Origin: Jiangella endophytica
GTDB taxonomy: Bacteria > Actinomycetota > Actinomycetes > Jiangellales > Jiangellaceae
Reading direction: 5' to 3'
DNA: 64,000 nucleotides
Assembly (NCBI RefSeq): GCF_003427025.1
Contig: NZ_QVAI01000004.1
Coordinates: 372,001 to 436,000, forward strand
Within the stretch, counting starts at the first letter, position 1. Every line of letters starts with the position of its first letter. The notes beneath the pieces were generated by a model. It was not told the origin of the DNA. It searched no databases and saw only the letters and a list, made by a program, of their open reading frames with translations. The translations under genes and the position numbers were made by a program. Below, piece by piece: positions 4,419-50,547 of this stretch.

Positions 4419-4432
4419 GACGGACTCCTTCC

Positions 4433-6787
4433 CTAGCGACTGGGGCCCACGACGACGCGCACCGGCGCCGACGTGCTGGGGGCATGGGCGAGGCTGCCCG
4501 CGTAGGTCGCGACCAGCGTGTGGCTGCCCGGCCGGCCCACGTCGGACGCGGCGACGGTGACGGCGGCGGCGCCGTCGCGCAGTTCCCCCGTGGCGACGGC
4601 CGCGCCCGGCGACCCGTCTGCGCGGATCTGGTGCAGGGTGACGGTGCCCTGCGGCTGTCCCGGCGGACCGTCGACGCGGACGGTCACGACCCCCGGTCCG
4701 CCGGCCGACACCGGCCGCAACGGGGTCGTGGCGGTCGTCGACGACGGGGCCGCGGCCACATCGGGCAGCACCCGCAGCAGCGCCCCGCCGCTCCCCCAGT
4801 ACGCACGGTCCGACCCGTCGAAGGCGAGCGTCCGGTAGTAGCCGCTGCCCGGGTTCGCGACCACCTCGACGGTGTCCGTGCCCGCCGGGATGCGCACGAT
4901 CGCGCTGCCGGTGTGCCCGTACAGGTCGCCGCCCGGACCGTCGACCAGGCCGAGCAGCTGACCGCCCGGGAACGCGCCCAGGACGGTCACCACACCGGAG
5001 GCGGGGTCCATGCGGAACCAGGTCCCGTCCGCCGACCCGTACAGGGTGCCGTCGGCGGCGGTCTCCAGCGTGAGGATGCGGGTCGCGCCGGGCACCGGCA
5101 CCACGGACGCGAGCACCGTCGCGTCGTCGGGGTCGACGGTGAGCACGCGGGCGTCGCCGCCGGCGTCGGTATCGTCGCCGTAGCGGGTGGTGCCGGCGTA
5201 GACGACGTCGTCACCGGCCGCGACGGCGAAGAAGTGCTGGTCGCCGGCCAGGCCGCGGAACGACTCGACCTCGTACGTGACCGGGTCGATCGCCGTCAGC
5301 GCGCCGCGCAGCGCTCCGTAGGCGGCCGACGACGCGACCCACACGCGGCCGTCCGGACCGACCTCCATGTCCCACGGCCGGTACTGGTTGTCGCCGACCG
5401 GGCCGAGGTCGCGCGGGTTGGACGCCGGCGAGCTGCCCGGGTTCCACGGCTGCGCGGGGTCGAAGACCGTGACGACGTTGTTGATGTACGAGCCGATGAA
5501 GATCTTGTCGCCGGCCGTGACCATCGACAGGATCTCGCCGGTGCGGCCGGGAGCGACGTTGCCGTAGACGGTGGTGTCGCCGGTGGCCGGGTCGTAGCCG
5601 AACAGCGCGTTGGTCTCGTACGTGCCGCCGTACACCGACCCGTCCGGACCGGACACCAGCGCGGTGATGTTCGTCGGGTTGCCGGGCAGCGACAGCTGGT
5701 GCGTCCACACCTCGCCGGTCGCCGGGTTCCACCGGCCGAGCAGCCCGTTGCTGCCGACGCTGGTGAACCACTGCTGCCCGCCGATCGTGACCGGCCACAT
5801 GCGGGCCGCCGACACGAACGACGGCGGTGTGCCGGTGTCGGTGGTGGCGAGCGTGTCGCCGTCGACGGCGATGATGCTGGTGCCGCCCGCGCCGGTCCCC
5901 GTCACGTAGAAGTCGTTCGGGTCGGCGCCGCCCTGCGGGGCGAAGCCCATGCCGGTGACGCCCGGCACCTCGGCGTCGAACGTCATCGTCGCCGCGTCGA
6001 ACCGGACGATCCGCGCGTCCGGCGTCACCAGCTGCACGTACACCCAGTCGCTGATGCGCACCGCGTTGTAGGCGAAGGAGTAGTGCTGGTACTGCGACGG
6101 CAGCACCTCGGTCGCCGCGCCGGTGGCGATGTCGACGACGAGCACGCTCGCGTCGGTGCCCTGCGCGACCACCAGCCGGTTCGCGTCCAGCACCGCGAGG
6201 CCCTTGGGGTAGGTGCGGGTGGACACGACCAGCCGGACGGCGCCGGTGCCGGGGTCGTACTCGTAGACGCCGGCGCCGGAGTGCACGCCGCAGTAGACCT
6301 TGCCGGTGTACGGCGACACCGTGATGCCGAAGCACATGATGCCCGTGGGCATCGTCGCGACCAGCGCGATCGTGTCGGCGACCGGGTCGTACTCCCAGAT
6401 CTGCGACGCGCTGGACGAGTTCAGCGGGCCGAGGTAGACGTGTCCGTCCGGCCCGGCGGTGACGTGGTAGCCGCCCCAGGCTCCGGGCATCGGCAGCTCG
6501 GTACGGACGGCGCCGGTCTCCGGGTCGACGCCGAAGAACGTGACGCCGTCGCTGGGTGCGTTGTAGGTGCTGCCGTAGAGGGTCGGGTCACCGTTGGCGT
6601 CGTCGGCGAGGACGGTGTCGAGGACGAGGTAGGTGGAGATCGGGATGCCGAGGTTCTCGACGACGCCCGGATCGGACTCGGGCGAGGCGGGCGCGGCCGC
6701 CGCGGGCGCCAGCAGTGCGGTCGCGGCGGCCACGGCCAGCGTGGCGAGGGATCGACGTCGGGGGAATCGTGCACGCGGGAAGGGCAT
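4433..6787 (-). CDS. Secreted YncE/NHL-type beta-propeller protein with C-terminal Ig-like domain
   Basis: A 784-residue protein with an N-terminal basic stretch (FPRRRSLATLAV) and Ala-rich hydrophobic signal sequence ending near residue 33. Residues about 40-680 consist of repeated blades of the type DGxVYxGTxxxxxxxxYDPATGxxxxxG, seen many times, as in YncE/SMP-30/WD40-like propellers. The last roughly 100 residues (from about 685) look like a bacterial Ig-like domain repeat (TVTLHQIRADG, SHTLVATYAG). No catalytic residues are recognised. ATG 6787 has GGAG 6 nt upstream. It is the first gene of a two-gene unit with the downstream BNR-like gene; both are exported. A binding or structural role outside the cell is inferred. 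Confidence 0.7.
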   Translation of the reverse strand: MPFPRARFPRRRSLATLAVAAATALLAPAAAAPASPESDPGVVENLGIPISTYLVLDTVLADDANGDPTLYGSTYNAPSDGVTFFGVDPETGAVRTELPMPGAWGGYHVTAGPDGHVYLGPLNSSSASQIWEYDPVADTIALVATMPTGIMCFGITVSPYTGKVYCGVHSGAGVYEYDPGTGAVRLVVSTRTYPKGLAVLDANRLVVAQGTDASVLVVDIATGAATEVLPSQYQHYSFAYNAVRISDWVYVQLVTPDARIVRFDAATMTFDAEVPGVTGMGFAPQGGADPNDFYVTGTGAGGTSIIAVDGDTLATTDTGTPPSFVSAARMWPVTIGGQQWFTSVGSNGLLGRWNPATGEVWTHQLSLPGNPTNITALVSGPDGSVYGGTYETNALFGYDPATGDTTVYGNVAPGRTGEILSMVTAGDKIFIGSYINNVVTVFDPAQPWNPGSSPASNPRDLGPVGDNQYRPWDMEVGPDGRVWVASSAAYGALRGALTAIDPVTYEVESFRGLAGDQHFFAVAAGDDVVYAGTTRYGDDTDAGGDARVLTVDPDDATVLASVVPVPGATRILTLETAADGTLYGSADGTWFRMDPASGVVTVLGAFPGGQLLGLVDGPGGDLYGHTGSAIVRIPAGTDTVEVVANPGSGYYRTLAFDGSDRAYWGSGGALLRVLPDVAAAPSSTTATTPLRPVSAGGPGVVTVRVDGPPGQPQGTVTLHQIRADGSPGAAVATGELRDGAAAVTVAASDVGRPGSHTLVATYAGSLAHAPSTSAPVRVVVGPSR

Positions 6788-37143: not shown

Positions 37144-37215
37144 GACGACTCCGATGCTCCGGGGGACGGGGACGACATTCCGTGGTTCGGCAGCGAACAC
37201 GGGCCGATGTTCCAT

Positions 37216-37275
37216 GTCAAGACACACACGGTGACGACTGTGGTCTTGACCGCCGATACCGGACGGCTCTACCGT
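37216..37275 (+). promoter_or_regulatory. Promoter with dyad overlapping the -35, upstream of the sialidase-like gene
   Basis: GTCAAGAC (37216-37223) and GTCTTGAC (37243-37250) form a perfect 8-bp inverted repeat. The right arm overlaps TTGACC (37246-37251), which is followed after 18 nt by TACCGT (37270-37275), a good actinobacterial -35/-10 pair. The start codon is 60 bp downstream. A repressor bound at the dyad would block the promoter. The divergent gene at 37143 may share it. Confidence 0.5.
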
Positions 37276-37334
37276 CGCCGCGCATAGGTATGGAACCGCG
37301 TTTCACTCAGTTGCCGAGTGTTGGGAGTTCCCTC

Positions 37335-39587
37335 ATGCCCCCTCGTCCACGACCTCACCTGTCCGGCATCGTCGGAGGCCTGGTCGGCTTCGGCGCGGCC
37401 GTCGCCCTGCTCGGGGCCGGCCTGGGCGGGCCCGAGCGCGTCGACCCCGCGGCCGACACGCCCGCAGGCGCGATCAACCCGCTGCCCGCGGGCGACGGCC
37501 CGCCCGCCGACGCGTCGGTCACCGGCGTCGGCCCGGAGTGGAACGTGCTGAACTGGGGTCCGGGGCCGCGCGCCGCCGTGCCCGCCTCGTTCGGCTACGA
37601 CACCGTGGTCGACGGGCGCACGAAGCAGAAGATCTTCGTGTCGTCGCAGGCCAACGACGACGTCGCGGGTGCGGACTCGATCGTCAACATGTCGCTGTCC
37701 GAGGACTCCGGGCTGTCGTTCCTCACCACCGAGCGCGACTACCCGACGACGGCGCTGAACATGACCCGCCTGCCCGACGGCTCGCTGTTCGCCGTCGACT
37801 TCATCCCGGAGTGGGCCGACAGCACCCAGACGTCGGTGAACCTGCTGTCCTGGCGGTCCACGGACGGCGGGCAGACCTGGGAACGGATCAAGGGCCGGTT
37901 CACGCCGCCCGCCGGCGAGCAGTTCGCCGGCACCAACCGCGGCCTGCGCGTCCACCGGGTCCCGCGGGTCCTCGACGACGGCGCCATCGTCGTCCCCGTC
38001 TACACCACCTACCGCTCGGCGCCGCGCCGGATCAGCGCGTTCCTCCAGTCCACCGACGGCGGCCACACCTGGACACAGCGCTCCGTCGTGCCGTCGAGCA
38101 TCGGCACCAACGAGGTCGGCTGGGGGCACACGAAGGACGGCCGGCTGATCGCCGTCATGCGCACGGAGGGCGAGACGCCGGCCCGCCTGCGGGTCAGCTG
38201 GTCCAGCGACGACGGCCACACGTGGTCCCCGTCGCAGCCGCTGCTCGACCCCGGCGGCCAGCAGGTCGTCGGCATCTACCCCGACGTCGTGCTGCAGCCC
38301 AACGGCATCATGCTGATGAGCACGGGCCGGCCGGACAACCGCGTCTACATCGACTACGACGGCACCGGCGAGACCTGGGACGAGGTCCGTGACGTCTTCA
38401 CCCTGTACCCGTCGGACACCGGCAACGGCCGCTACGACGGCTCCAGCGGCAACCAGTCGATGACCGGCGTCGGGGCCAGCCGGACGCTGTTCTTCGGCGA
38501 CCGGTGCCACGTCTGGGGCTGCAAGGCCTACAACGAGCAGTACGGCGTGGTCGCGGTGCTGCTGAACGCCGTGACCGACGGCGTCGGCAAGATCGACGTC
38601 GCGTCGCAGCTGGCCGGGGGCGTGGCAGCGGTGACGGGCGACTTCGCGCCGGCCGATGCGCGCTTCCCCGAGCAGCGTCCCGAGGGTGCGTTCGACGGCA
38701 GCTCGCGGCCGAACTCCGCCGCCGTGCTGTCAGGCTCCGGCACCCCGGCGATGACGCTGAAGCTGGACCGGCCGTACTCGATCGACCGCATCGGCCTGAT
38801 GCTCGGTGACGGCCAGCCGCTCGATGCCAACATCCAGCTCTCGCTCGACGGCCGCCGCTGGGGCAAGCCGGTGGTGCGCACGGCCGGCACCCGCGACCAT
38901 TCGATGCGCTACACGGACTTCCCGGCGCAGCGAGCCCAGTACGTGCGGGTCACGACGCCGGCCGGCACCACCACGCCGATCACCGAGCTGGAGGTCTACG
39001 CCGCCGACGTGCAGACCTTCGAGAACGACCCGATCTACGGCATCCCGCGCGGCTTCGTCGACGCGAAGAACGCCACCGTCAACGACCAGGAGGTCGAGGG
39101 CTGGAACAGCAGCTCGTCGCTGCGGCTGTTCGACAAGTTCCTCGACGACAACGCGACGGCCACTAGGCCGGCGCCGCCCGTCGACCACCAGCGGGCGACG
39201 TTCGCGTGGAGCACCAACGACTTCCGCGGCCCCTTCACGTTCTCGGCCGAGGGGCGCTCCGGCGACGACGCCGTCACCCCGTGGCGGTTCCGGCTGGTGC
39301 CCGGGGCGAACGCGACGACGCCGCCGGCGGTGGAGGTCTCCGACGGTTCGACCTGGACGTCGCTGGGCTCGCTCTCCGCCGTCGTGCCGGTCAACACCTG
39401 GGTGCCGATCACCGTCGACACCACGACGTCCGAGGCGACGGTGACGATCGGCGCGCAGGAGTTCACCACGGGGGTCTCGGCGGAACCGGCCGACCAGCTC
39501 GCGGGACTGACCTTCACCACCGGCGACCCGATCGCCTACGGCATGTCGTTCTTCATCGACGACCTGAGTATCGGGGGCGTCTCGTAG
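37335..39587 (+). CDS. Secreted BNR/sialidase-like protein with F5/8C-type domain
   Basis: A 750-residue exported protein with a signal segment (VGGLVGFGAAVALLGAGLGG). The propeller (about 60-400) shows several Asp-boxes: WRSTDGGQTW, LQSTDGGHTW and WSSDDGHTW, characteristic of exo-sialidases and related BNR hydrolases. Residues about 440-570 resemble an F5/8 type C carbohydrate-binding sandwich (LDRPYSIDRIGLML, YVRVTTPAGTTTPITELEVY in parts). The last 150 residues are concanavalin-like. The complete arginine triad of sialidases was not verified. ATG 37335 has GGGAG 8 nt upstream. It ends 13 bp before the convergent YedK gene. Confidence 0.8.
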   Translation: MPPRPRPHLSGIVGGLVGFGAAVALLGAGLGGPERVDPAADTPAGAINPLPAGDGPPADASVTGVGPEWNVLNWGPGPRAAVPASFGYDTVVDGRTKQKIFVSSQANDDVAGADSIVNMSLSEDSGLSFLTTERDYPTTALNMTRLPDGSLFAVDFIPEWADSTQTSVNLLSWRSTDGGQTWERIKGRFTPPAGEQFAGTNRGLRVHRVPRVLDDGAIVVPVYTTYRSAPRRISAFLQSTDGGHTWTQRSVVPSSIGTNEVGWGHTKDGRLIAVMRTEGETPARLRVSWSSDDGHTWSPSQPLLDPGGQQVVGIYPDVVLQPNGIMLMSTGRPDNRVYIDYDGTGETWDEVRDVFTLYPSDTGNGRYDGSSGNQSMTGVGASRTLFFGDRCHVWGCKAYNEQYGVVAVLLNAVTDGVGKIDVASQLAGGVAAVTGDFAPADARFPEQRPEGAFDGSSRPNSAAVLSGSGTPAMTLKLDRPYSIDRIGLMLGDGQPLDANIQLSLDGRRWGKPVVRTAGTRDHSMRYTDFPAQRAQYVRVTTPAGTTTPITELEVYAADVQTFENDPIYGIPRGFVDAKNATVNDQEVEGWNSSSSLRLFDKFLDDNATATRPAPPVDHQRATFAWSTNDFRGPFTFSAEGRSGDDAVTPWRFRLVPGANATTPPAVEVSDGSTWTSLGSLSAVVPVNTWVPITVDTTTSEATVTIGAQEFTTGVSAEPADQLAGLTFTTGDPIAYGMSFFIDDLSIGGVS

Positions 39588-39600
39588 GTACGGACTCCGG

Positions 39601-40341
39601 TCAGCCGCCCAGCGGGAGCTGGGCGGCTGCCGCCTCGTCGACCAGGCCGGCGTGGTTGTTGCGCACGTTCCCGACGTCGGGCCCGACCGGCCGCGCCGCC
39701 AGCGCGGTCCCCACCCGGCCCGCCGCCGAGCGGGCGAGGTCCAGCAGTGCGCCGGTGTCCTCGTTGCTCCGGTCCAGCCAGTCCGGGATCTCCTCCGCCG
39801 TCAGCAGCACCGGCATCCGGTCATGGATGTGCGCCAGCCCCGGCACCGGCGCCGTCGTGAGGACGCTGGCCGAGAGCACCCAGCGGTGCGGGTCGTCGGC
39901 CGGCGCCGACGGGTCCCGCCACCACTCGAACACGCCGGCCATCGCCAGCAGGCCGCCGGCCGGATGGATGAAGTAGGGGCGCTTCGTCCGTCCGGCCCCC
40001 CGCTGCCACTCGTAGTAGCCGCGGGCCGGCAGGACGCACCGGCGCCGGGCGACGGGACCGCGGAAGGCGGGTTTGTCGGCGACGGTCTCGATGCGGGCGT
40101 TGATCATCGTGGCGGCGGTGCCGGAGTTCTTGGCCCAGGACGGGATCAGGCCCCACCGCGCCGCATGCAGCTGCCGGGTCCGCTCGGGCGGCTCGTCGGT
40201 GCGTTCCAGCACGACGGGGACGCGGTCGGTGGGCGCGACGTTGTACGACGGCATCAGCTCCGCGACCGTGCCCGCGGCGATGGCGTCGAACTCGGCCGCG
40301 AGGTCGTCGATCGACGTGTCAGCGACGTAGCGTCCGCACAT
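39601..40341 (-). CDS. SOS response-associated peptidase (YedK/HMCES)
   Basis: A 246-residue SRAP-domain protein. The mature N-terminal cysteine is C2 (MCGRY), which forms a thiazolidine crosslink with abasic sites in single-stranded DNA. Other conserved residues are N81-R83-E85 in NARIE, E111 in ARGYYEW and H173 in HDRMPVLL. Length is normal. It starts 4 nt after the GH3 stop, so it lies at the end of the LacI-GH3 operon, an unexpected place for a DNA-repair gene; a separate internal promoter cannot be excluded. Confidence 0.93.
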   Translation of the reverse strand: MCGRYVADTSIDDLAAEFDAIAAGTVAELMPSYNVAPTDRVPVVLERTDEPPERTRQLHAARWGLIPSWAKNSGTAATMINARIETVADKPAFRGPVARRRCVLPARGYYEWQRGAGRTKRPYFIHPAGGLLAMAGVFEWWRDPSAPADDPHRWVLSASVLTTAPVPGLAHIHDRMPVLLTAEEIPDWLDRSNEDTGALLDLARSAAGRVGTALAARPVGPDVGNVRNNHAGLVDEAAAAQLPLGG

Positions 40342-40345
40342 CCGG

Positions 40346-42757
40346 TCATTCTGCCGCAGGCGTCACGGCGCACCACAGCGGCAGGTCGTCGACGTGCGGG
40401 CCGACGTGCAGGGTGAACGGGCCGGGCTCGACCGCCCAGCCGCCGGCGGCCCAGTGGGCGAACGCGCGCCGTCCGATGCGCAGCCCCGCCTCGGCCGTCT
40501 CGCCGGCGTCCGCCCGCACGACGGCGAACCCGGCCAGCCAGCGCACCGGCCGCTCGACCGCGCTGCCCGGCCGCGACAGGTACGCCTGCACGACGTGTTT
40601 GCCGGGCCGCCCGCCGGTGTTGCGCACCGGCAGTACGACGTCGACCCCGCCGTCGCCGGCCGCGGCCACTCGCGGGGCGCCGAGCGACCACGTCGTGTAC
40701 CCGAGACCGGACCCGAACGGGTACGCCGGCACCGCCCCGGCCCGCAGCCAGGCCCGATGACCGACGTGGATCGCCTCGTCGTAGGGCAGCCGGCCCTCGA
40801 CGGGGGTGGTCGACAGCACCGGGACGTCCCGCTCCGCGGCCGGCCACGTGGTGGGCAGCCGCCCGCCTGGCTCCCGGACACCGAGCAGCACGTCGGCCAG
40901 CGCGTGTCCCAGCTCCTGGCCGCCGAACCAGGTCAGCAGCACGGCGGCGACGTCGTCGCGCCACGGCAGCAGCACCGGGGCGCCCGCCGTCACCGCGACC
41001 ACCGTGCGCGGGTTCGCCGCCGCGACCGCCCGCACCAGGTCGTCCTGCCCGCCGGGCAACGCCAGCGTGGCACGGTCGAAGCTCTCGCTCTCGTCGTCGG
41101 CGCCGGTGCCGACGACGACGAGGACGGCGTCGGCCCCGCGGGCCGCGGCCACCGCGTCGGCGAGGGCGCCGGGGGTGTCCGGCCCGGCCGGGTCGGTGCC
41201 GACCACCAGCGTCCCGGCGGTGTGGTCGCCGGCGGGCAGGTCGAGCCGGGCGACCACGTCGACCGGACGGTCCGCGACCAGGTCGACCTCCACGCTCGCC
41301 ACCGGCGGCGCCACCAGTCCCCCGGCGAACGCCGTGCCGTCGTGTTCGAGCACGGTGTCGAGCACCGTGGCGCCGTCGACCGTCAGCCGGACCCGCCCTC
41401 CCGCCGCCACGCCCAGCCGAGCGACGCCACCGTGGACCGGCCGGTACACCGCCGCGAGCTCCACCGACGCCGCTCCGGCCAGCCGCCGCGACCCCAGCCG
41501 GGTCAGCTCGGCTGAGCGGTACCGTTCCGAGCGCAGCACCGTGCCACCGGCGGACCGGACGACCAGCCGCACGCCCGGCTCGCCGGTCTCGGGGTCGGTG
41601 AGATCGGCGGGCGGCAGCGCGACCAGACCCCGCCGCACCCGCGCACCGAGCGACCACCGCACGTCGACACCCGGCAGTGCGGCGCGCAGGCCGTCGAGCG
41701 GCGACACCACCCGCTCGGGCTCCACGTACGCGCTGCCGCCGCCCTGGGTGCGGGCCAGCACGGCGGCCGGGCCGATGACGGCGACGGAGCGCAGCTCGGC
41801 CGCGTCCCACGGCAGCTCGCCGCCGGCGTTGCGCAGCAGCACCATGCCCTCGGCGGCCGCCTCACGCGCGAACGCCACCCCATCGACGACCGGCGATGGG
41901 CGCGCCGTGACCGCGTCCAGCGCACCCACCCGCGCCGCCAGCCGGAGCAGCCGCCGCACCTTCTCGTCGACCGCCTCCTCGGGCACCGAGCCGGCTCGCA
42001 CGGCGTCCACCAACGCGTCGCCCCACGGCCCAGCTGGGCCCGGCATCACCAGGTCCAGCCGCGCGCGCCCCGCCGCGGACGTCGTGCGTGCCGCACCCCA
42101 GTCGGACACGACGACGCCGTCGAAGCCCCACTCACCGCACAACGGCTCGGCCAGCAGCGGGTTCTCCGTCATCGTCGCGCCGTTCACCGAGTTGTACGCC
42201 GCCATCACCATCCACGGCCGCTCCTCGACGACGGTGTCCTCGAACGCGGCCAGGTACAGCTCGCGCAGCGTCCGCTCCCCCACCACGACGTCGACGGTCA
42301 GCCGCTCGGTCTCGGCGTCGTTGCCTACATAGTGCTTCGGGCACGCCCCGACGCCGCCGTTCTGTACGCCGCGCACGTACGCCGCCGCCAGCCGCGACGT
42401 CAGCAGCGGGTCCTCCGAGTAGGCCTCGAAGTGCCGCCCGCCCAACGGGCTGCGATGCAGGTTCACGGTCGGCCCGAGCAGCACGTCGGCGCCGACCCGC
42501 CGGGTCTCCGCCGCCAGCACCGCACCGAACCGCTCGGCCAGCTCGACGTCCCAGCTGGCGCCGAGCGCCGTGCCGGACGGCAGGTTCAGGGCGGTGACCG
42601 CGCCGCCGCGATGCGCGGCCCGGACCCCGGCCGGGCCGTCGGTCAGCACCACGGTCCGCAGCCCGATGGCGGGCTCGGCCCGCAGGTGCCACGAGTCGGT
42701 CCCGGTGAGCAGCCGCACCTTCTGCTCGAGCGTCAACTTCGCCAGCAGGTCGTCCAT
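40346..42757 (-). CDS. Glycoside hydrolase family 3 beta-glycosidase
   Basis: An 803-residue enzyme without a signal peptide, so probably intracellular. The N-terminal barrel carries DGPAGVR, KH at 141-142 and the nucleophile D219 in VVVSDWGA. The second (alpha/beta) domain holds an inserted PA14-like segment (about 420-520, RLTVDGATVLDTVLEHDG in parts), and the C-terminus is fibronectin-III-like (VVQAYLSRPG). Typical activities are beta-glucosidase or beta-xylosidase; specificity is not evident. It lies 4 nt after the LacI stop and 4 nt before the YedK start, all in one minus-strand unit. It likely degrades oligosaccharides imported by the nearby ABC transporter. Confidence 0.9.
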   Translation of the reverse strand: MDDLLAKLTLEQKVRLLTGTDSWHLRAEPAIGLRTVVLTDGPAGVRAAHRGGAVTALNLPSGTALGASWDVELAERFGAVLAAETRRVGADVLLGPTVNLHRSPLGGRHFEAYSEDPLLTSRLAAAYVRGVQNGGVGACPKHYVGNDAETERLTVDVVVGERTLRELYLAAFEDTVVEERPWMVMAAYNSVNGATMTENPLLAEPLCGEWGFDGVVVSDWGAARTTSAAGRARLDLVMPGPAGPWGDALVDAVRAGSVPEEAVDEKVRRLLRLAARVGALDAVTARPSPVVDGVAFAREAAAEGMVLLRNAGGELPWDAAELRSVAVIGPAAVLARTQGGGSAYVEPERVVSPLDGLRAALPGVDVRWSLGARVRRGLVALPPADLTDPETGEPGVRLVVRSAGGTVLRSERYRSAELTRLGSRRLAGAASVELAAVYRPVHGGVARLGVAAGGRVRLTVDGATVLDTVLEHDGTAFAGGLVAPPVASVEVDLVADRPVDVVARLDLPAGDHTAGTLVVGTDPAGPDTPGALADAVAAARGADAVLVVVGTGADDESESFDRATLALPGGQDDLVRAVAAANPRTVVAVTAGAPVLLPWRDDVAAVLLTWFGGQELGHALADVLLGVREPGGRLPTTWPAAERDVPVLSTTPVEGRLPYDEAIHVGHRAWLRAGAVPAYPFGSGLGYTTWSLGAPRVAAAGDGGVDVVLPVRNTGGRPGKHVVQAYLSRPGSAVERPVRWLAGFAVVRADAGETAEAGLRIGRRAFAHWAAGGWAVEPGPFTLHVGPHVDDLPLWCAVTPAAE

Positions 42758-42761
42758 CGGA

Positions 42762-43856
42762 TCACGCGGGCGCGCCGACGGTGCGCCCGCCGGTCGGCTC
42801 GCAGGCGATGAACTCCTGCTCCGGCCCGCCCTCGGGGGCGTCGAGCAGTCGCAGCAGCATGCGCACCGCGGCCGCGCCGATCTCGCGGCTGGGGGTGCGC
42901 AACAGGGTGAGCGCGGGGTCGGGCGAGAGGACGTTCTCGCGGTCGCCGTGGTCGCCCAGTCCGACGACGCTCAGCGCGCCCGGAACGTCGACCCCCCGCG
43001 CCAGTGCGGCCTCGTACAGCCGGTGCGCGACGTAGGAGGACTCGGCGATGACGGCGGTCGCGCCGGACTCCTGCGCGGCGGCCAGCACCGCCGCTTCGTC
43101 GCCGGCCACCGGCACCCGCGGGAGGTCCGGGTTGGCCGCGCCGAAAGCGACCATGCGGGCTCGTTTCGCGCCGAGCCGGTGCCGCGCGCAGGCCGCCGCG
43201 AACCCGGTGCGCCGCTCGACCAGCGTCTCCTGCGTGCGGGTGCCGGCGACGTAGAGCAGCCGCCGGTGCCCACGCGCGTACAGGTCCTCGACGACCGAGC
43301 CGGCGCCGGCCGCGTAGTCGGCCGCCACCCACGACACCTGCGGCCCGACGTCGTCGTGCCGGCCGATCATGACGAACGGGTAGCCGTCGGCGGACAGCTT
43401 GGCCAGCTCGCCGCTGTCGACCCGGCCACCGACCAGGATCGCGCCGTCGGCCAGCCGCAGCATGTTCGCGTCGCGGTTGTAGATGGACCGCTCCCCCGAG
43501 TCGTTCTTCGCGCCGGTGAACAGCAGCAGGTGGTGCGCGACCGCCTCGGCCTCCTCCTCGATGCCGAGCAGGAACTCGTAGTAGAAGTCGCGGCTCTCCC
43601 ACGGGAACAGCCGCTGGTAGGTGAACGCGCCGATGATGCGGTTGCGGCCACCGGCCAGGCTCTGCGCGGCGATGTTCGGCGTGTAGTGGAGCTCGCGGAC
43701 GGCCTGCCACACCCGCTCGCGGGTCTGCTCGCTGACGCGGATGGCGTCGTTCTTGCCGTTGATGACCGTGGAGACGATGGCCGTGGAGACGTTCGCGGCG
43801 CGAGCGACGTCGCTCTGCGTCACGCGACGGTTGCCGGGCCGGCGGCGCTGCGCCAC
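42762..43856 (-). CDS. LacI-family transcriptional regulator
   Basis: A 364-residue repressor. The helix-turn-helix is VTQSDVARAANVSTAIVSTV, then the hinge helix NIAAQSLAGGRNRIIG; a periplasmic-binding-protein-like effector domain follows. GTG 43856 (MAQRRRPGNRR) was preferred because AAGCAGG lies about 7 nt upstream; GTG 43898 in frame has none. It is the first gene of the unit with GH3 and YedK, and diverges from the FAD-oxidoreductase/ABC operon. Direct repeats in that spacer are likely linked to its control. Ligand is probably a sugar. Confidence 0.88.
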   Translation of the reverse strand: MAQRRRPGNRRVTQSDVARAANVSTAIVSTVINGKNDAIRVSEQTRERVWQAVRELHYTPNIAAQSLAGGRNRIIGAFTYQRLFPWESRDFYYEFLLGIEEEAEAVAHHLLLFTGAKNDSGERSIYNRDANMLRLADGAILVGGRVDSGELAKLSADGYPFVMIGRHDDVGPQVSWVAADYAAGAGSVVEDLYARGHRRLLYVAGTRTQETLVERRTGFAAACARHRLGAKRARMVAFGAANPDLPRVPVAGDEAAVLAAAQESGATAVIAESSYVAHRLYEAALARGVDVPGALSVVGLGDHGDRENVLSPDPALTLLRTPSREIGAAAVRMLLRLLDAPEGGPEQEFIACEPTGGRTVGAPA

Positions 43857-43938
43857 GAGTACCTGCTTCCCAGTTCCGGCGAACCTCGCCGGACCCACCC
43901 ATTGACGACGGAACGGTCCGAGTCTAGCATCGGCTAAC

Positions 43939-43975
43939 GCGCTTAATCATAGCGCTTAATCACAGCGCTTAATCA
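43939..43975. repeat. Three 11-bp direct repeats at 13-bp spacing (probable operator array)
   Basis: GCGCTTAATCA occurs at 43939-43949, 43952-43962 and 43965-43975, with TA and CA spacers. The first copy overlaps TAACGCGCTTA, an imperfect palindrome with the central CG typical of LacI-family operators. The array lies 25-60 bp upstream of the FAD-oxidoreductase start and 83-119 bp from the LacI start. The AT-rich core may also overlap the promoter. Exact sequence identity is seen; function is inferred. Confidence 0.7.
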
Positions 43976-44000
43976 GCTTCTGACGAGCCAGGAGGCGCCG

Positions 44001-45635
44001 ATGGACCTCGAGACCGATGTGCTCGTCGTCGGCGGCGGGCTGGGCGGTGTCGCGGCGGCGCTCGCGGCGCTGCGACTGGGCCGCCGGGTCGTCCTCACCG
44101 AGGAGTCGCCGTGGCTGGGCGGCCAGCTCACGTCGCAGGCCGTCCCCCCGGACGAGAACGCGTGGGTCGAGACGTTCGGCGCTCCCGCCAGCTACCGCCG
44201 TCTGCGCGCCGAGATCCGCGATCACTACCGCCGGCACTACCCGCTGACGGAGTCCGCGCGGGCCGCCGCCGCGCTGAACCCCGGCGACGGCCGGGTCAGC
44301 CCGCTGTGCCACGAGCCCAAGGCGGCGCTCGCGGCGATCCAGGCGACGCTGGCGCCGTACCTGGCGAACCGGAGGCTCACGGTGCTCACCGGCACCCGGC
44401 CGCGGTTCGTCGAGACCGGCGGCGACGTCGTCACCGCGGTACGGTTCGAGGCGACCGGCGGCGACGCCGGTGACGTCACCGTCCGCGCCCCCTATGTCCT
44501 CGACGCCACCGAACTGGGCGACGTCGTGGAGAAGTCCGGCACCGAGTCGGTCATCGGCGCCGAGAGCCGCGACCAGACCGGCGAACTGCACGCTCTGCCC
44601 GGCCCGCCGCAGCCGCTCGACCAGCAGTCGTTCACCTGGTGTTTCGCCCTGGACTACCGCGAGGGCGAGAACTGGACCATCGACCGCCCGGCCGGCTACG
44701 GCTTCTGGCGCGACCATGCGCCGGACTACTGGCCGGGTCCGCTGCTCTCCTGGACCGACGTGCGGCCGGACTCGCTCGCCGTCCGGACCCATCCGCTGTT
44801 CACCGACGCCGCGACGCCCACCGGCGGGCACGGCATCGACCGCTGGACGTTCCGGCGGCTCCTCAGCGTCCGTACGTTCACGCCCGGCTTCCTGGCCAGC
44901 GACGTCACCCTCGTCAACTGGCCGCAGAACGACTACGTGCTCGGCCCGCTGGTCGGCGTCGGCCCGGCGGAACGGCAGCGCCACCTCGACGCCGCCATGC
45001 AGCTGAGCCGTTCGCTGCTCTACTGGATGCAGACCGAAGCGCCGCGGCACGACGGCGGCACCGGCTACCCCGGCCTGCGCCCACGCGGCGACCTGCTCCG
45101 CGACGGCGTGCCAGACGACGCCGGACTGGCGCTGCGCCCGTACGTCCGCGAGTCGCGGCGCATCGCCGGCGAGGTCACCGTCGTCGAGGAGCACGTCGGC
45201 GTCGAGGCCCGCCGCACCGCCGGGTTGCCGCCCGGCTCGGAGGTCTTCCCCGACTCCGTCGGCATCGGCTGCTACCGCATCGACCTGCACCCCAGCACCG
45301 GCGCCGGCACCCCGCGCAGCTACGTCGACATCGCCTGCCACCCGTTCCAGGTGCCGCTCGGCGCGCTGCTGCCCGTCCGCATGGAGAACCTGATCGCCGC
45401 GGCGAAGAACATCGCCACCACGCACGTCACCAACGGCGGCTACCGGCTGCACCCGGTCGAGTGGACCATCGGCGAGGCGGCCGGCGCACTGGCCGCACAC
45501 TGCCTCGAGACCGGTCTCCCGCCGCGCGCGGTGCGCGCCAAGCCCGTCGCGCTGGAGCGGTTCCAGCGCCTGCTCACCGGCGTCCTCGGCGCCGAACTGG
45601 CCTGGCCCGAGCGCGTCCGCACCAGCACCGTCTGA
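44001..45635 (+). CDS. FAD-dependent oxidoreductase (FAD_oxidored type)
   Basis: A 544-residue flavoprotein. The N-terminal dinucleotide-binding motif VVGGGLGGVAAALAAL spans about 8-23, followed by the TEESPWLGGQLTSQ segment seen in this family; C-terminal segments NIATTHVTNGGYRLHPVEW and GEAAGALAAHC close the FAD site. Homologues occur in carbohydrate loci, but substrates are rarely known. ATG 44001 has AGGAGG 5 nt upstream. It leads an operon of beta-helix protein, ABC importer and hydrolase, immediately downstream of the LacI-linked repeat array. Oxidation of an imported sugar or a tailored glycan unit is inferred. No signal peptide is visible. Confidence 0.82.
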   Translation: MDLETDVLVVGGGLGGVAAALAALRLGRRVVLTEESPWLGGQLTSQAVPPDENAWVETFGAPASYRRLRAEIRDHYRRHYPLTESARAAAALNPGDGRVSPLCHEPKAALAAIQATLAPYLANRRLTVLTGTRPRFVETGGDVVTAVRFEATGGDAGDVTVRAPYVLDATELGDVVEKSGTESVIGAESRDQTGELHALPGPPQPLDQQSFTWCFALDYREGENWTIDRPAGYGFWRDHAPDYWPGPLLSWTDVRPDSLAVRTHPLFTDAATPTGGHGIDRWTFRRLLSVRTFTPGFLASDVTLVNWPQNDYVLGPLVGVGPAERQRHLDAAMQLSRSLLYWMQTEAPRHDGGTGYPGLRPRGDLLRDGVPDDAGLALRPYVRESRRIAGEVTVVEEHVGVEARRTAGLPPGSEVFPDSVGIGCYRIDLHPSTGAGTPRSYVDIACHPFQVPLGALLPVRMENLIAAAKNIATTHVTNGGYRLHPVEWTIGEAAGALAAHCLETGLPPRAVRAKPVALERFQRLLTGVLGAELAWPERVRTSTV

Positions 45636-45664: not shown

Positions 45665-47251
45665 ATGCCCCCGACCACCGTCACCCGGCGCACCCTGCTC
45701 AGCATGGCCGCCGCGGTCCCGCTGTTCCACGGCGCCACGAAGCTCAGCGTCGCGGCCGCCGGCGCCGACCCCGCGGCCGGCGTCGTCAAGGCCTCCGACT
45801 TCGGCTTCGACCCCGAGGACTCCACGGCCGCGCTGACCGCCGCCCTGGACAGCGGCGCCGACGTCGTCGTCATCGATCACGTCGGCCAGGACTGGATCAC
45901 CGGGCCGCTGTGGATCAACCGCGACGACCTCACCGTCATCGTCGAGGACGGCGTCACCCTCCGCGGCAAGGCGGCCGGGTTCCCGGACACCCGCGACGGC
46001 ATCTGGCGCATCCACGGCCGGCGCAACGTCAAGCTCATCGGCTACGGCGCCACCTGCGCCATGACCAAGGCCGAGTACACCGGCGAGTGGCGCGCCATCG
46101 TGCGCATGGGCACCAGCGAGAACGTCACCGTCGAGGGCCTGGTGCTGCGTGGCGCCCCCGGCGACGGCATCATCACCGGCGCCGGGTCGACGAACGTCAC
46201 CATCCGCAACGTCGTCTGCGACGACAACAAGCGCAACGCCATCAGCGTCATCTACGCCGACGGCCTGCTCATCGAGGGCAGCGCGTTCGTCAACACCGAG
46301 GGCACGCTGCCCGAGGCCGGCATCGACCTCGAGCCCGACACCGCGGCACAGCTGATCAAGGACGTCGTCATCCGCGACTGCGTGTTCGCCGGCAACCGCA
46401 CGTACAGCTTCGAGATCAACCTGATGCGCTACCAGGCCACCAGTACACCCGCGTCGGTGCTGGTCGAGCGGTGCTACATGGGCCCGACCGGCGACGCCGT
46501 CGTGCACGTGCAACCCGGGACCAAGGGCCCGGCGAGCGGCTCGGTGATCTTCCGCGACTGCGTGTTCGATGCCGGCGACTCGCCCGGCACGGTCAACGTG
46601 TACGGCCAGCGCGGCTACGACGGCCTGCGGACGACGTTCGAGCGGGTCGCGTTCACCGCGCTGCGCGACCCGGCCCGGACCGACGCATTCGTGAAGGTCT
46701 GGTCCGGCATGGTGACGGTGCTGCCGGAGTACGGCAACATCGGGTTCACCGACTGCCTGGCCCTGGCCGACCTCGACGGCCCGTTCCTCGCCGGCATGGA
46801 GGGCGCCGGCGACCCCGTCCTCGCCAACGTGCAGGGCACCCTCTGGGCGGTCCGCCCGCAGCAGCCCGTCGTCGAGACGGCGGGCGCCACCCGCGACGTC
46901 GACCTCGACCTGCGGCCCACGACCGGCGCCGGCACCGTCGTCGTCACCAGCGACCGGCGCTGGGTACGAGCCGGCGAGACCGCCACCGTCACCGTCCGGC
47001 GGCTGGGCTCCGACCTCGCCGCACCGCTCGCGCTGCACTACGACCTGTCCGGCACCGCGCGGCACCGGGTCGACTACGACGGCCTGCCCGGCGTCGCCGT
47101 CATCGCGCCGGGACAGCGCGCCGTCACGATCCCCGTCCGGGCCCGCGACACCGGCGACACCACCCCGCGCGAGCTGCGGCTGACGCTGCGTCCGCTGCCC
47201 GGCACCACCGTCGCCGGCCGCGACGCCGTGACGCTGCGCGTCGCCGGCTGA
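45665..47251 (+). CDS. Tat-exported right-handed beta-helix protein with Calx-beta-like domain
   Basis: A 528-residue protein. The twin-arginine motif TRRTLLS (R8, R9) and a short hydrophobic core indicate Tat export. Residues about 70-400 show strand repeats of a parallel beta-helix: VTVEGLVLRGAPGDGI, VTIRNVVCDDNKRNAISV, LIEGSAFVNTEG and VVIRDCVFAGN. This fold is used by polysaccharide lyases and pectinases. The final 110 residues (ATVTVRRLGSDLAAPLALHY, VIAPGQRAVTIPV) look like a Calx-beta domain. No catalytic residues were identified. ATG 45665 follows GGAGGG. Between the FAD enzyme and the sugar-binding protein, it probably acts on the exterior polymer. Confidence 0.75.
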   Translation: MPPTTVTRRTLLSMAAAVPLFHGATKLSVAAAGADPAAGVVKASDFGFDPEDSTAALTAALDSGADVVVIDHVGQDWITGPLWINRDDLTVIVEDGVTLRGKAAGFPDTRDGIWRIHGRRNVKLIGYGATCAMTKAEYTGEWRAIVRMGTSENVTVEGLVLRGAPGDGIITGAGSTNVTIRNVVCDDNKRNAISVIYADGLLIEGSAFVNTEGTLPEAGIDLEPDTAAQLIKDVVIRDCVFAGNRTYSFEINLMRYQATSTPASVLVERCYMGPTGDAVVHVQPGTKGPASGSVIFRDCVFDAGDSPGTVNVYGQRGYDGLRTTFERVAFTALRDPARTDAFVKVWSGMVTVLPEYGNIGFTDCLALADLDGPFLAGMEGAGDPVLANVQGTLWAVRPQQPVVETAGATRDVDLDLRPTTGAGTVVVTSDRRWVRAGETATVTVRRLGSDLAAPLALHYDLSGTARHRVDYDGLPGVAVIAPGQRAVTIPVRARDTGDTTPRELRLTLRPLPGTTVAGRDAVTLRVAG

Positions 47252-47274: not shown

Positions 47275-48702
47275 ATGACCCACCCGACCCGCGCCCTCAA
47301 CCGGCGCACCCTCCTGGGCCTGGGCGCCGGACTCGGCGCCCTGGCCGGCACCGGGTTCCTGTCCGCCTGCGCGACGTCGTCGTCCACCCGCGGGGGCGGC
47401 GAGTCCGCCAGCCCACGGGCCACCGGCGACCCGGACAACCCGCTCGGCGTGCCCGCGGACCTGCCGCTGGAGGCCGTCATCTTCAAGGGCGGCTACGGCG
47501 ACCAGTACGCGATCGACGCCCAGGCCGTCTACCAGCAGCGTTTCCCGCAGGCGCAGATCCAGCACACCGGCGGGCAGGAGCTGGCCAAGCTGCTGCAGCC
47601 GCGCTTCGTCTCCGGCGACGTGCCCGACGTCATCTGCAACGCCGGCGCCGGCGCGCTGATGCTCGCCCCACTGGTCGAGAACGGCCAGCTGACGGACCTG
47701 ACCCCGCTGCTGGACGCCCCCGCCGACGGCGGCGACGGAAGGACCGTCCGCGACACGCTGCTGCCGGGCGTCGTCGAGCAGGGCACGTTCGGCGGGGTGC
47801 CGTACGCGCTCAACTACACCTTCACGGTGCACGGCCTGTACTACAGCAGCGCCCTCTTCGACGAGCACGGCTGGACCTACCCGGGCACCTGGACCGAGAT
47901 GCTGGACCTGTGCCAGGAGATCAAGGACTCCACCGGCATGGCGCCCTGGACCTACCAGGGCAAGAACCCCGGCTACATCCTGACGCCGCTGGTCATGATG
48001 GCCGTCAAGGCCGGCGGCCGGGACGTCATCGACGCACTGGACAACCTCGACCCGGACGGCTGGACCAGCGCGCCGATGATGGAGTCGGCGCGGGCGATGT
48101 ACCAACTGGTCGAGCGCGACTTCATCATGCAGGGCACGTCCGGCCTCACCCACATCCAGGCGCAGACCTACTGGGCCAACGGCGAGGCCGCCTTCATCCC
48201 GTGCGGGTCGTGGCTGGAGAGCGAGCTCGGCGACGTCACGCCGGACGGCTTCGACATGGTCATCGCGTCGCCGCCCGCCCTCACCGACGACGACGCGCTG
48301 CCGCAGGCCGCCATCCGCGGCATGGGCAACGAGCCGTTCATCGTCCCGGCGCAGGCGGAGAACCCGTACGGCGGCATGGAGTTCCTGCGCATCATGCTGT
48401 CGCCGGCGTCGTCGCAGAACTTCACCCGGCAGACGCAGACGCTGACCAGCCTGGCCGAGTACGACCCGCAGTCGGCCGGCACCGGACTCACGTCGGTGCG
48501 CGACGCGCTGAGCGCGTCGGGCGACGACACGTTCTTCTGGCGCTACGGCACCTGGTACTCGGCGCTGCAGACCGAGGCGGCCAACGCCACGAGCGCGCTG
48601 ATGACCGGCGAGATCGACCCGGACGAGTGGGGCCGGCGCTGCCAGGCCGCCGCCGACGCCGTCCGGGAAGACGACTCGATCGAGAAGTACGGGGACCAGT
48701 GA
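47275..48702 (+). CDS. Sugar ABC transporter substrate-binding lipoprotein
   Basis: A 475-residue solute-binding protein of the carbohydrate-uptake-1 family. The leader has both RR (residues 10-11, NRRTLLGLG) and a lipobox LSAC with C32, so Tat-exported lipoprotein is likely. The domain shows the family elements GQELAKLLQPRFVSGDVPDV, YALNYTFTVHGLYY, TMAPW-like WTYQGKNPGY and the C-terminal QAYWANGEAAFIPCGSWLE-like helix. Overall closest by eye to NgcE-type N-acetylglucosamine/chitobiose binders, not certain. ATG 47275 has GAGGAG 6 nt upstream. The two permease genes follow directly; no ATPase gene is present, suggesting a shared MsiK-like ATPase elsewhere. Confidence 0.85.
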   Translation: MTHPTRALNRRTLLGLGAGLGALAGTGFLSACATSSSTRGGGESASPRATGDPDNPLGVPADLPLEAVIFKGGYGDQYAIDAQAVYQQRFPQAQIQHTGGQELAKLLQPRFVSGDVPDVICNAGAGALMLAPLVENGQLTDLTPLLDAPADGGDGRTVRDTLLPGVVEQGTFGGVPYALNYTFTVHGLYYSSALFDEHGWTYPGTWTEMLDLCQEIKDSTGMAPWTYQGKNPGYILTPLVMMAVKAGGRDVIDALDNLDPDGWTSAPMMESARAMYQLVERDFIMQGTSGLTHIQAQTYWANGEAAFIPCGSWLESELGDVTPDGFDMVIASPPALTDDDALPQAAIRGMGNEPFIVPAQAENPYGGMEFLRIMLSPASSQNFTRQTQTLTSLAEYDPQSAGTGLTSVRDALSASGDDTFFWRYGTWYSALQTEAANATSALMTGEIDPDEWGRRCQAAADAVREDDSIEKYGDQ

Positions 48703-48706
48703 CGTC

Positions 48707-49624
48707 ATGCGTGCCGGCAGTCTCAGGTTCGTCGTCACGGCCCTCGCCGTCCCGATCCTCCTCTACGGCGTCCTCGTCATCTCCCCGTACGCCCAGTCGT
48801 TCTACATCTCGCTGACCGACTGGAACGGGCTGTCGCCGGAGCGGACGTTCGTGGGGCTGGACAACTACGTCCGGCTGGTCCAGGACGACGTGTTCTGGAT
48901 CTCGGTGTGGCACAACGTCATCGCGGTGCTGGTGATCCCGGCCGTGACGCTGGCGCTGGGGCTGTTCTTCGCGACGATGATCCACGTCGGCCGGTACCGC
49001 GCCCGCGGCGGCGGCCGCGGCGTGCGGGGCGCCGCGGTCTACCGCATCGTCTACTTCTTCCCGCACCTGCTGTCGATCGCTGTGGTCGGCGTGCTGTTCT
49101 CCACCGTCTACGACCCGACCGACAGCGGCCTGCTCAACGGCGCGCTCGGCCTGGTCGGCATCGAGCCGGTGAACTGGCTGGGCGACCGCGGCACCGCCTA
49201 CCCGGCGATGCTGGCAGTGATCATCTGGCTGTCCGTCGGCTTCTACGTGATCCTGTTCACCAGCGCGATGAGCTCGATCCCGGTGGACATCTTCGAAGCC
49301 GCCCGGCTCGACGGCGCGTCGCGGTGGCAGACGTTCTGGCGCATGACGTTGCCGCTGATCTGGGACACCGTCCAGGTTGCCGGCATCTACCTCGGCATCC
49401 ATGCGCTGGACATGTTCGCGATCGTCAACGTGATGTCGGCGGCCGGCGGGTCGGGCGGGCCGGACAACGCCACCCAGGTGCTGGGCAACTACCTGTACCT
49501 CACCGCCTTCCAGAACAGCGAGTTCGGCTACGCCACCGCCATCGGCGTCGCCCTGCTGCTGCTCACCCTGGCCTTCGCCGCCGCGGCGCTGCGGCTGACC
49601 CGGCGCGAGCGCGTCGAATTCTAG
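48707..49624 (+). CDS. Sugar ABC transporter permease, MalF type
   Basis: A 305-residue permease with six hydrophobic segments. The cytoplasmic coupling (EAA) loop is EAARLDGASRWQTFWRMTLP, which docks to the ATPase. The N-terminal stretch IPILLYGVLVISPYAQSFYIS-like segment is typical of the MalF/UgpA side. It starts 4 nt after the binding-protein stop and precedes the second permease by 8 nt, so the three form one transporter. Confidence 0.9.
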   Translation: MRAGSLRFVVTALAVPILLYGVLVISPYAQSFYISLTDWNGLSPERTFVGLDNYVRLVQDDVFWISVWHNVIAVLVIPAVTLALGLFFATMIHVGRYRARGGGRGVRGAAVYRIVYFFPHLLSIAVVGVLFSTVYDPTDSGLLNGALGLVGIEPVNWLGDRGTAYPAMLAVIIWLSVGFYVILFTSAMSSIPVDIFEAARLDGASRWQTFWRMTLPLIWDTVQVAGIYLGIHALDMFAIVNVMSAAGGSGGPDNATQVLGNYLYLTAFQNSEFGYATAIGVALLLLTLAFAAAALRLTRRERVEF

Positions 49625-49632
49625 GAGGATCG

Positions 49633-50547
49633 ATGAGCCTCGATACGACGCGTGCACCCGGCCCCGCGGCGCCTCCCGCGGCGCGGCCGGCGCCGCCCGG
49701 GCCGGGTGACGGCCGCTCCGCCACCGGCAGCGTCCTCAACGTCTTCACCCACGGCTTCCTGCTCACCTGGGCGGCGCTGGTGGTGATTCCGCTGGCGTGG
49801 TGCGTGATGTCGGCGTTCAAGACCAATGACGAGCTGCTCAGCAGCCCGTGGAGCCTGCCGGGCGCGCTGCGGTGGAGCAACTTCGCCGACGCGTGGACGA
49901 ACGCGGAGATCGGCCGCTACTTCGTCAACACGGTGGTCGTGGTGACGCTCGGGACGGCGTTGACGTTGGCCATGGGCGCCACCGTCTCCTACGTCGTCGC
50001 GCGCTACGCGTTCCGCGGCAACCGGCTGGTGTACTTCCTGTTCGTCATCGGCATGACGTTTCCGACGTTCCTCGCCATCGTGCCGCTGTTCTTCATCGCG
50101 CAGAGCCTGCGGCTGGCCGACTCGCTACCCGGCCTCGCCGTCGTCTACGCCGCGTACAACCTGCCGTTCGCCGTCTTCTTCCTCACCGCCTACTTCCGGA
50201 CGCTGCCGACGTCGCTGTCCGAGGCCGCGTTCATCGACGGCTGCGGACACTGGGGCACGTACCTGCGGATCATGCTGCCGCTGGCCCGGCCGGGCCTGGT
50301 GAGCGTCGGCATCTTCGTGGTGCTCGGGCAGTGGAACCAGTACCTGCTGCCGCTCATCCTGCAGTCCAGCCCGGAGAACTACGTGCTCGCCCAGGGACTG
50401 GCCAACCTCGCGGTCAGCCAGGGCTACGCCGGCAACTGGAGCGCGCTGTTCGCCGGCCTCACCATCTCGATCGTCCCCGTCCTCGTCGTCTACCTCAGCT
50501 TCCAGCGGCAGATCCAGGGCGGCATGGTCACCGGCGCCCTGAAGTAA
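49633..50547 (+). CDS. Sugar ABC transporter permease, MalG type
   Basis: A 304-residue permease with six hydrophobic segments and a polar, Pro/Ala-rich N-terminus (about 1-30). The EAA loop is EAAFIDGCGHWGTYLRIMLP. The C-terminal LSFQRQIQGGMVTGALK is the usual end of MalG/UgpE proteins. ATG 49633 has AGGAGG 5 nt upstream. With the preceding permease and lipoprotein it makes an importer lacking its own ATPase. Confidence 0.9.
   Translation: MSLDTTRAPGPAAPPAARPAPPGPGDGRSATGSVLNVFTHGFLLTWAALVVIPLAWCVMSAFKTNDELLSSPWSLPGALRWSNFADAWTNAEIGRYFVNTVVVVTLGTALTLAMGATVSYVVARYAFRGNRLVYFLFVIGMTFPTFLAIVPLFFIAQSLRLADSLPGLAVVYAAYNLPFAVFFLTAYFRTLPTSLSEAAFIDGCGHWGTYLRIMLPLARPGLVSVGIFVVLGQWNQYLLPLILQSSPENYVLAQGLANLAVSQGYAGNWSALFAGLTISIVPVLVVYLSFQRQIQGGMVTGALK

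Follow-up and report, generated by a model that had tools for sequence, protein, structure and literature searches.

Operators of the LacI family are treated as palindromes (PMC2329647, PMC6828939), with a rule linking the hinge and a central CG (PMC2978694), although flexible sites are described for another member of the family (PMC5263246). These and the other papers are cited here for the parts of their text that bear on site architecture. The distances between LacI sites peak at 13, 22 and 32 bp (Ravcheev et al., 2014; PMC4052901). Overlapping sites approximately 13 bp apart occur upstream of 110 operons; their function has been shown for gntKU, and the part of the study cited here gives no structural explanation for them (PMC4052901). 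Standard LacI dimers that are 13 bp apart overlap in their contact zone (PMC4052901). Double operators at 21–22 bp are described for RafR and ScrR (PMC4052901). CytR of E. coli, also a LacI-family protein, reads direct repeats of half-sites; it differs by a 1-bp spacer, a flexible linker and its cooperation with CRP (PMC3454398). Among actinobacterial LacI-family repressors, MalR of Streptomyces lividans and AcrC of Actinoplanes have been described (PMC5526262). The MalR half-site, CTTGCAG, occurs as direct and inverted repeats downstream of the promoter with spacers of 3–15 bp, and the cited part of that work tells of no regular 13-bp array (PMC5526262).

The locus described here shares the regulator family, the distance and the promoter proximity with the 13-bp LacI sites, such as those of GntR at gntKU in E. 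coli (PMC4052901, in the part cited). It lies in a 64-kb stretch of DNA of a soil actinobacterium, which was analysed as a whole and is called the window. Its features are the following.

40346..42757, minus strand: GH3 glycoside hydrolase, 3′ of lacI (Pfam Glyco_hydro_3 N and C domains)
42762..43856, minus strand: LacI-family regulator, 364 aa with GTG 43856 as the chosen start, in an open frame that extends to 43898
43902-43907 and 43925-43930, plus strand: promoter-like −35 TTGACG and −10 TAGCAT, 17 bp apart, of the transporter operon
43933-43948, plus strand: operator 1, GCTAACGC·GCTTAATC (the dot marks the centre), a predicted, imperfect LacI palindrome with central C·G and 5/8 pairs
43939-43949, plus strand: unit 1, GCGCTTAATCA, centre and right half of the predicted operator 1
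43952-43962, plus strand: unit 2, putative hemi-operator at +13 bp, centre and right half without left half
43965-43975, plus strand: unit 3, putative hemi-operator at +26 bp, centre and right half
44001..45635, plus strand: FAD-dependent oxidoreductase, first gene past the array (Pfam FAD_oxidored PF12831, 7.6e-97)
45665..47251, plus strand: right-handed beta-helix protein (Pfam Beta_helix)
47275..48702, plus strand: ABC-transporter solute-binding protein (Pfam SBP_bac_1)
48707-49624 and 49633-50547, plus strand: two ABC-transporter permeases (Pfam BPD_transp_1)

The array thus has a lacI-family gene on one side and, on the other, an ABC-transporter operon taken to serve sugar uptake. The genes from the FAD-dependent oxidoreductase to the permeases, all on the plus strand and separated by small gaps, probably form one operon, and an AGGAGG at 43990-43995 precedes the first of them. 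TTGACG-17-TAGCAT is the only sigma-70-like site in 43500-44500, and unit 1 begins 8 bp beyond its −10 box. The regulator is predicted to be a LacI-family repressor by its N-terminal LacI HTH (Pfam PF00356, 1.3e-14) and its periplasmic-binding-like core (Peripla_BP_3 PF13377, 1.6e-21). An eight-member profile of this LacI matches the structures of CcpA, PurR and LacI over most of its length, CcpA and PurR being the closest solved relatives. The hinge, PNIAAQSLAGGR, is consistent with a hinge helix of the standard type and resembles that of E. coli LacI. Further along, downstream of the lacI-GH3 pair, lies a gene with an SRAP domain (SOS response associated peptidase; 39601-40341), which is adjoined by a BNR-repeat gene (37182-39587).

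Three identical 11-bp repeats with a period of 13 bp had been reported by a sequence-only reading of this DNA, and they are confirmed to the base: GCGCTTAATCA occurs three times in the span 43939-43975. That reading missed the left flank GCTAACGC, which is part of the first site; the conserved element begins at 43933. Tandem Repeats Finder, run on the window, returns a period of 13 and 2.8 copies. At up to one mismatch, no further copy of GCGCTTAATCA is present in the 64 kb, where 0.14 are expected, and a count of three was reached in 0 of 100 shuffles. Likewise, a set of three exact 11-mers sharing one period in the range 12–25 appeared in none of 100 simulated first-order-Markov windows, and the array is the only such set in the real window. 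The whole 7.85-Mb genome contains no exact GCGCTTAATCA beyond the array. Together with seven places at one mismatch elsewhere, the genome total is 10 matches, against 13 for a reversed-pattern control; because this control yields no fewer, isolated near-copies are meaningless. Chance or slippage as the origin of the array is disfavoured by the shuffles, the Markov windows and the conservation described below. It had also been pointed out that 13 bp does not equal one helical turn. This arithmetic is right and corresponds to a rotation of ~86 degrees. The spacing is indeed unusual, yet it has a known counterpart, as it is a preferred LacI inter-site distance (PMC4052901, in the part cited).

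The nature of the unit becomes apparent from orthologs of the regulator. The set comprises 11 of them, i.e., the one in the window and 10 others, with seven members from the family, three from Hamadaea and one from Nonomuraea soli; identity is 66–70% for Hamadaea and N. soli. At E ≤ 1e-85, the ortholog search gave hits in 1 of 341 genomes of the Nonomuraea family, 3 of 354 of the Hamadaea family and 7 of 393 of the class. One Hamadaea ortholog (locus L075; genome G868, contig C476) carries an in-frame TAG, which is either a broken gene or an assembly error. In all 11 cases a similar −35/−10 pair with a spacer of 17–18 bp is present, an operator centred on GC·G[C/T] begins exactly 2 bp after the −10, and the central C·G is kept. 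The Hamadaea operator, GCTAAAGC·GCTTTAGC, is a perfect palindrome (8/8 pairs) in three genomes, and that of N. soli, GCTAAAGC·GCTTAAGC, has 7/8 pairs. The family operator, GCTAA[C/T]GC·G[C/T]TTAATC, has 4 or 5 of 8 pairs in the three versions checked. Operator 1 of the window is in register with the Hamadaea and N. soli operators but pairs at 5/8 (4/8 in J. muralis), so that here the direct repeat is stronger than the palindrome. Operator 1, an even palindrome with a central CG beside lacI, has the properties of a LacI-family operator and is predicted to be one. Unit 1 would then represent the centre plus the right half of this LacI operator, which relatives have in complete form and which has decayed here.

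A pattern written from these operators, GMTWAHGCGYTTWAKC, of which only the uniqueness is informative, has a single zero-mismatch match in each of nine genomes (9/9), always at this locus; in the window's own genome, operator 1 is the sole place. No other regulon members were found with the zero-mismatch pattern in these nine genomes, and a single place per genome fits a local regulator. Hamadaea and N. soli (four orthologs) have a second site at 21 bp, or two helical turns, like the double operators of RafR and ScrR, whereas distances of 13 and 26 bp are found in Jiangella and of 13 bp in Phytoactinopolyspora (RafR and ScrR as in the cited part of PMC4052901). The second site of N. soli can be read either way, since its strong half, GCTTAAGC, is its own complement and is at the same time 13 bp downstream of the right half of the first site.

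Within the family, 22 genomes were sampled, including 12 of Jiangella and five of Phytoactinopolyspora, and the array search tolerated up to 3 mismatches. The two-unit pattern is present in seven of the 22, i.e., in 5 of the 12 Jiangella and 2 of the 5 Phytoactinopolyspora genomes. The same seven have a LacI ortholog of at least 72% identity, and the other 15 yielded neither the array nor the ortholog. In the 22 genomes, every two-unit array lies next to this lacI gene. Three units at 13 bp are present in all five Jiangella orthologs, and both Phytoactinopolyspora orthologs have two units at 13 bp and lack unit 3. The step of 13 bp is therefore common to all seven, and Hamadaea and Nonomuraea differ with 21 bp. 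The sequence-only reading had considered that number and spacing might vary freely in relatives; both proved to be fixed among orthologs within a genus. In Phytoactinopolyspora the gene adjoining the array encodes an SBP_bac_1 solute-binding protein rather than the FAD protein (3348-4784 of locus L047, and alike in genome G015), so that the array remains associated with lacI and the transporter.

The array is conserved far above synonymous sites. From 43933 onward, 30 of 30 bases are identical between the window and G015, a Phytoactinopolyspora genome, and 88 of 165 four-fold sites differ between the two lacI genes, which indicates strong purifying selection on units and spacing. Unit 2 and the TA spacer in front of it (spacer 1) are invariant in the seven family orthologs, and the left half of operator 1 reads GCTAA[C/T]GC in all seven. 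The spacer of unit 3 differs among the five Jiangella orthologs (CA, GA, TT, AA and AA). The 19 units of the seven genomes show four differences, all of them C to T at unit position 4, i.e., operator position +2. Two of these are common to the near relatives G004 and G010, which brings the number of events below four. Operator position +2 is free in LacI motifs such as nAAAnCGnTTTn (PMC4052901, in the part cited). Outside the family this arrangement is rare: at up to two mismatches, two-unit arrays are present in 9 of 393 genomes of the class, seven of which are the family members. The remaining two, in G108 and G172, have 2 mismatches and unrelated contexts with no lacI among the ORFs listed, and were set aside. 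A further place with 3 mismatches (L039 of genome G083) was viewed as sequence only. No three-unit 13-bp LacI array was found in the listed titles and abstracts of open-access papers.

The spacing of the array corresponds to the published 13-bp class of LacI sites, being about 13 bp and conserved in orthologs. However, the published sites are overlapping palindromes, whereas units 2 and 3 are without a left half and the locus has a perfect 11-bp direct repeat, three in a row (PMC4052901, in the part cited). Scored with a half-site matrix, unit 2 reaches −6.2 for its left and +12.0 for its right half; over units 2 and 3 the scores range from −8.2 to −1.4 for left halves and from +8.9 to +12.0 for right halves. 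As the window's own operator contributed to the matrix, there is some circularity in the high scores of the right halves, but none in the low scores of the left halves. Where the left half of unit 2 overlaps the right half of unit 1, the sequence obeys the right half. The idea that each unit is a palindrome of its own was rejected on the low scores of these left halves.

Altogether, the LacI protein is a well-supported, probable binder of the array, to judge from the sequences compared. The array and the LacI ortholog co-occur and unit 1 corresponds to half of a palindrome, which supports reading the array as LacI operators. The earlier suggestion of LacI operators in an unusual arrangement is thereby upheld, by the co-occurrence and by the palindromes in relatives, and its alternative of a second regulator is not needed. 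With moderate confidence, the array is considered the operator region of the adjacent LacI-family repressor, on which further dimers would occupy hemi-operators 13 and 26 bp on. On the assumption that transcription of the transporter operon starts ~7 bp downstream of the −10, operator 1 and the array would extend from about −4 to +39. A dimer on operator 1 would have its hinge helices at the C·G centre, with one of its HTHs on GCTAACGC and the other on GCTTAATC of unit 1. A second or third dimer would have its hinge at the centre of unit 2 or 3 and one HTH on the right half; its other HTH would not be specifically seated, because the preceding unit uses its position. The units might be filled jointly or in alternation. 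Extra dimers would raise occupancy over the start region and block initiation, and a sugar ligand would free LacI and end the block. The seating by one HTH is our own proposal, set against the overlap of standard dimers at 13 bp. The invariance of spacer 1 and unit 2 exceeds what this model requires.

The main rival holds the same protein responsible as the hemi-operator model. LacI would use three mutually exclusive registers that admit a single dimer at once or, with units 1 and 3 occupied (26 bp apart), two dimers, and extra copies would only add binding chances. Contact zones 13 bp apart do overlap (PMC4052901, in the part cited) and three-unit arrays permit occupancy of units 1 and 3. The two-unit arrays of Phytoactinopolyspora bar this occupancy, yet unit 2 is invariant there as well, and the strict keeping of the 13-bp step is not explained by exclusive registers. 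For these reasons this rival is deemed unlikely, although it deserves serious consideration.

A binding mode such as that of CytR is markedly less probable. One LacI dimer would then read two units as a direct repeat with one HTH reversed, which requires a flexible hinge. CytR does bind direct repeats, but these are octamers with a 1-bp spacer (period 9) read through an unstructured linker (PMC3454398, in the part cited). Operator 1 is a poor palindrome in the window, as this mode would allow; nevertheless, every unit retains the C·G centre, which a direct-repeat reader does not need, and the left half of operator 1 is kept in all seven family orthologs. With a period of 13 and a hinge of standard appearance, the array was not classed as a CytR-type operator. 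Direct repeats suit several other regulator families, so a different regulator might bind the three units while LacI binds operator 1 only. This is slightly less credible still: the unit equals a LacI half-site plus centre, it is tolerant at the LacI-tolerant position, its two-unit arrays occur only beside this lacI in the 22 family genomes, and the non-family matches in the 393 class genomes are just the two 2-mismatch places without a listed lacI. A recent neutral tandem duplication is a very improbable origin of units 2 and 3. Slippage makes tandem repeats and copy number differs between the genera, but unit 2 is identical in two genera between which approximately half of the lacI four-fold sites differ, and the spacer of unit 3 varies while the unit itself changes at position 4 only. 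An action of the array in 5′ untranslated RNA, conceivable from its position downstream of the presumed start site, is hardly believable, as the DNA palindromes of relatives at the same place suffice and the same geometry recurs with unrelated sequence (locus L082, below).

Other LacI genes also speak for LacI as the probable binder: two paralogs use the half-site of the array, and the unrelated locus L082 repeats its geometry. A paralog of 51% identity (L076) has GATTAAGC·GCATAATC (7/8 pairs), a palindromic form of the same half-site, and one of 47% identity (L022; G010, C1:4170230-4174264) has one copy of GCGCTTAATCA upstream. By eye, the region upstream of L022 shows two possible centres at a distance of 14 bp, whose inner halves read GCATCA and TGATGC. 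In the window's own genome, the 1-mismatch operator place ACTTAAGCGCTTAAGC (L066, C78:11928-11943) lies just upstream of a GH2 gene; it is possibly the operator of another lacI gene ~2.6 kb off.

Repeats were surveyed in the window's own genome over 330 bp upstream of LacI-type HTH places (at least 65, from 150 scored of 169 candidates), with repeats of at least 9 bases, A+T of at least 35% and a palindrome threshold of 6/8 pairs. Direct repeats gave 12 rows versus 0.82 expected, and the array described here accounts for three of the 12. A period of 13 is shown by two loci, L082 and the window, versus 0.035 expected; since the window was the starting point, only L082 is independent. Periods of 11, 14, 21, 23, 25, 27 and 33 were each seen once or twice. 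At another locus, L136 (C56:218834-219565), two overlapping palindromes 14 bp apart, with TCGAATCGATTCGAT repeated, lie upstream of a LacI-type HTH.

L082 (C67:196082-196105) has ATGTAACCGGT-TT-ATGTAACCGGT upstream of an unrelated LacI-family gene, in the same 11+2-bp geometry: an 11-bp unit of half-site and centre, followed by a 2-bp spacer. Its repeat starts 29 bases after a TTGACA, compared with 31 for the counterpart in the window. The pattern ATGTAACCGGT-NN-ATGTAACCGGT is found without mismatch in 12 of 12 Jiangella genomes, ~80 bases ahead of the same LacI HTH codons. Each of these genomes has a second place of this type, ATGTAACCGGTATCAGTAACCGGT, which in the window's own genome (C9:18494) lies ~90 bp before the start of a ThuA-domain gene. 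Matches in G014 and G017 (2 and 3 mismatches) were dismissed as probable chance, with no lacI nearby among GC-filtered ORFs of at least 120 residues. In Phytoactinopolyspora, ATGTAACC·GGTATCTGATACC·GGTTACAA precedes a similar LacI gene (L160); its outer halves are strong and its inner ones weak, as estimated by eye. Upstream of E. coli gntK, GTTACC·GATAACAGTTACC·CGTAAC forms a direct repeat of 13-bp period in which 8 of 10 bases agree; both halves are moderately kept, 13 bp apart, and C·C replaces C·G at the second centre. At L160 and gntK alike the outer halves are stronger than the inner ones.

A bolder reading, less likely than not, may tentatively be proposed: tandem hemi-operators at 13 bp would be a general operator class of the LacI family, in which dimers are packed at the closest spacing. 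Each dimer would seat its hinge and one HTH, and the shared half-site would be dispensable. If this is true, both unrelated Jiangella LacI arrays, L160 and E. coli gntK would be instances of the class, and it would explain the so far unexplained 13-bp peak of inter-site distances.

What is new is the three-unit half-operator form; the 13-bp spacing of LacI sites was already published, without an explanation. Across its orthologs, the same repressor presents a natural series of sites: Hamadaea and N. soli have two at 21 bp, Phytoactinopolyspora has two units at 13 bp, and Jiangella has three at 13 and 26 bp. Because the extra units are half-operators only, a single protein and a small set of short DNAs would suffice to test how dimers occupy them, and the locus is a natural test case for the known but unexplained 13-bp spacing in the LacI family.
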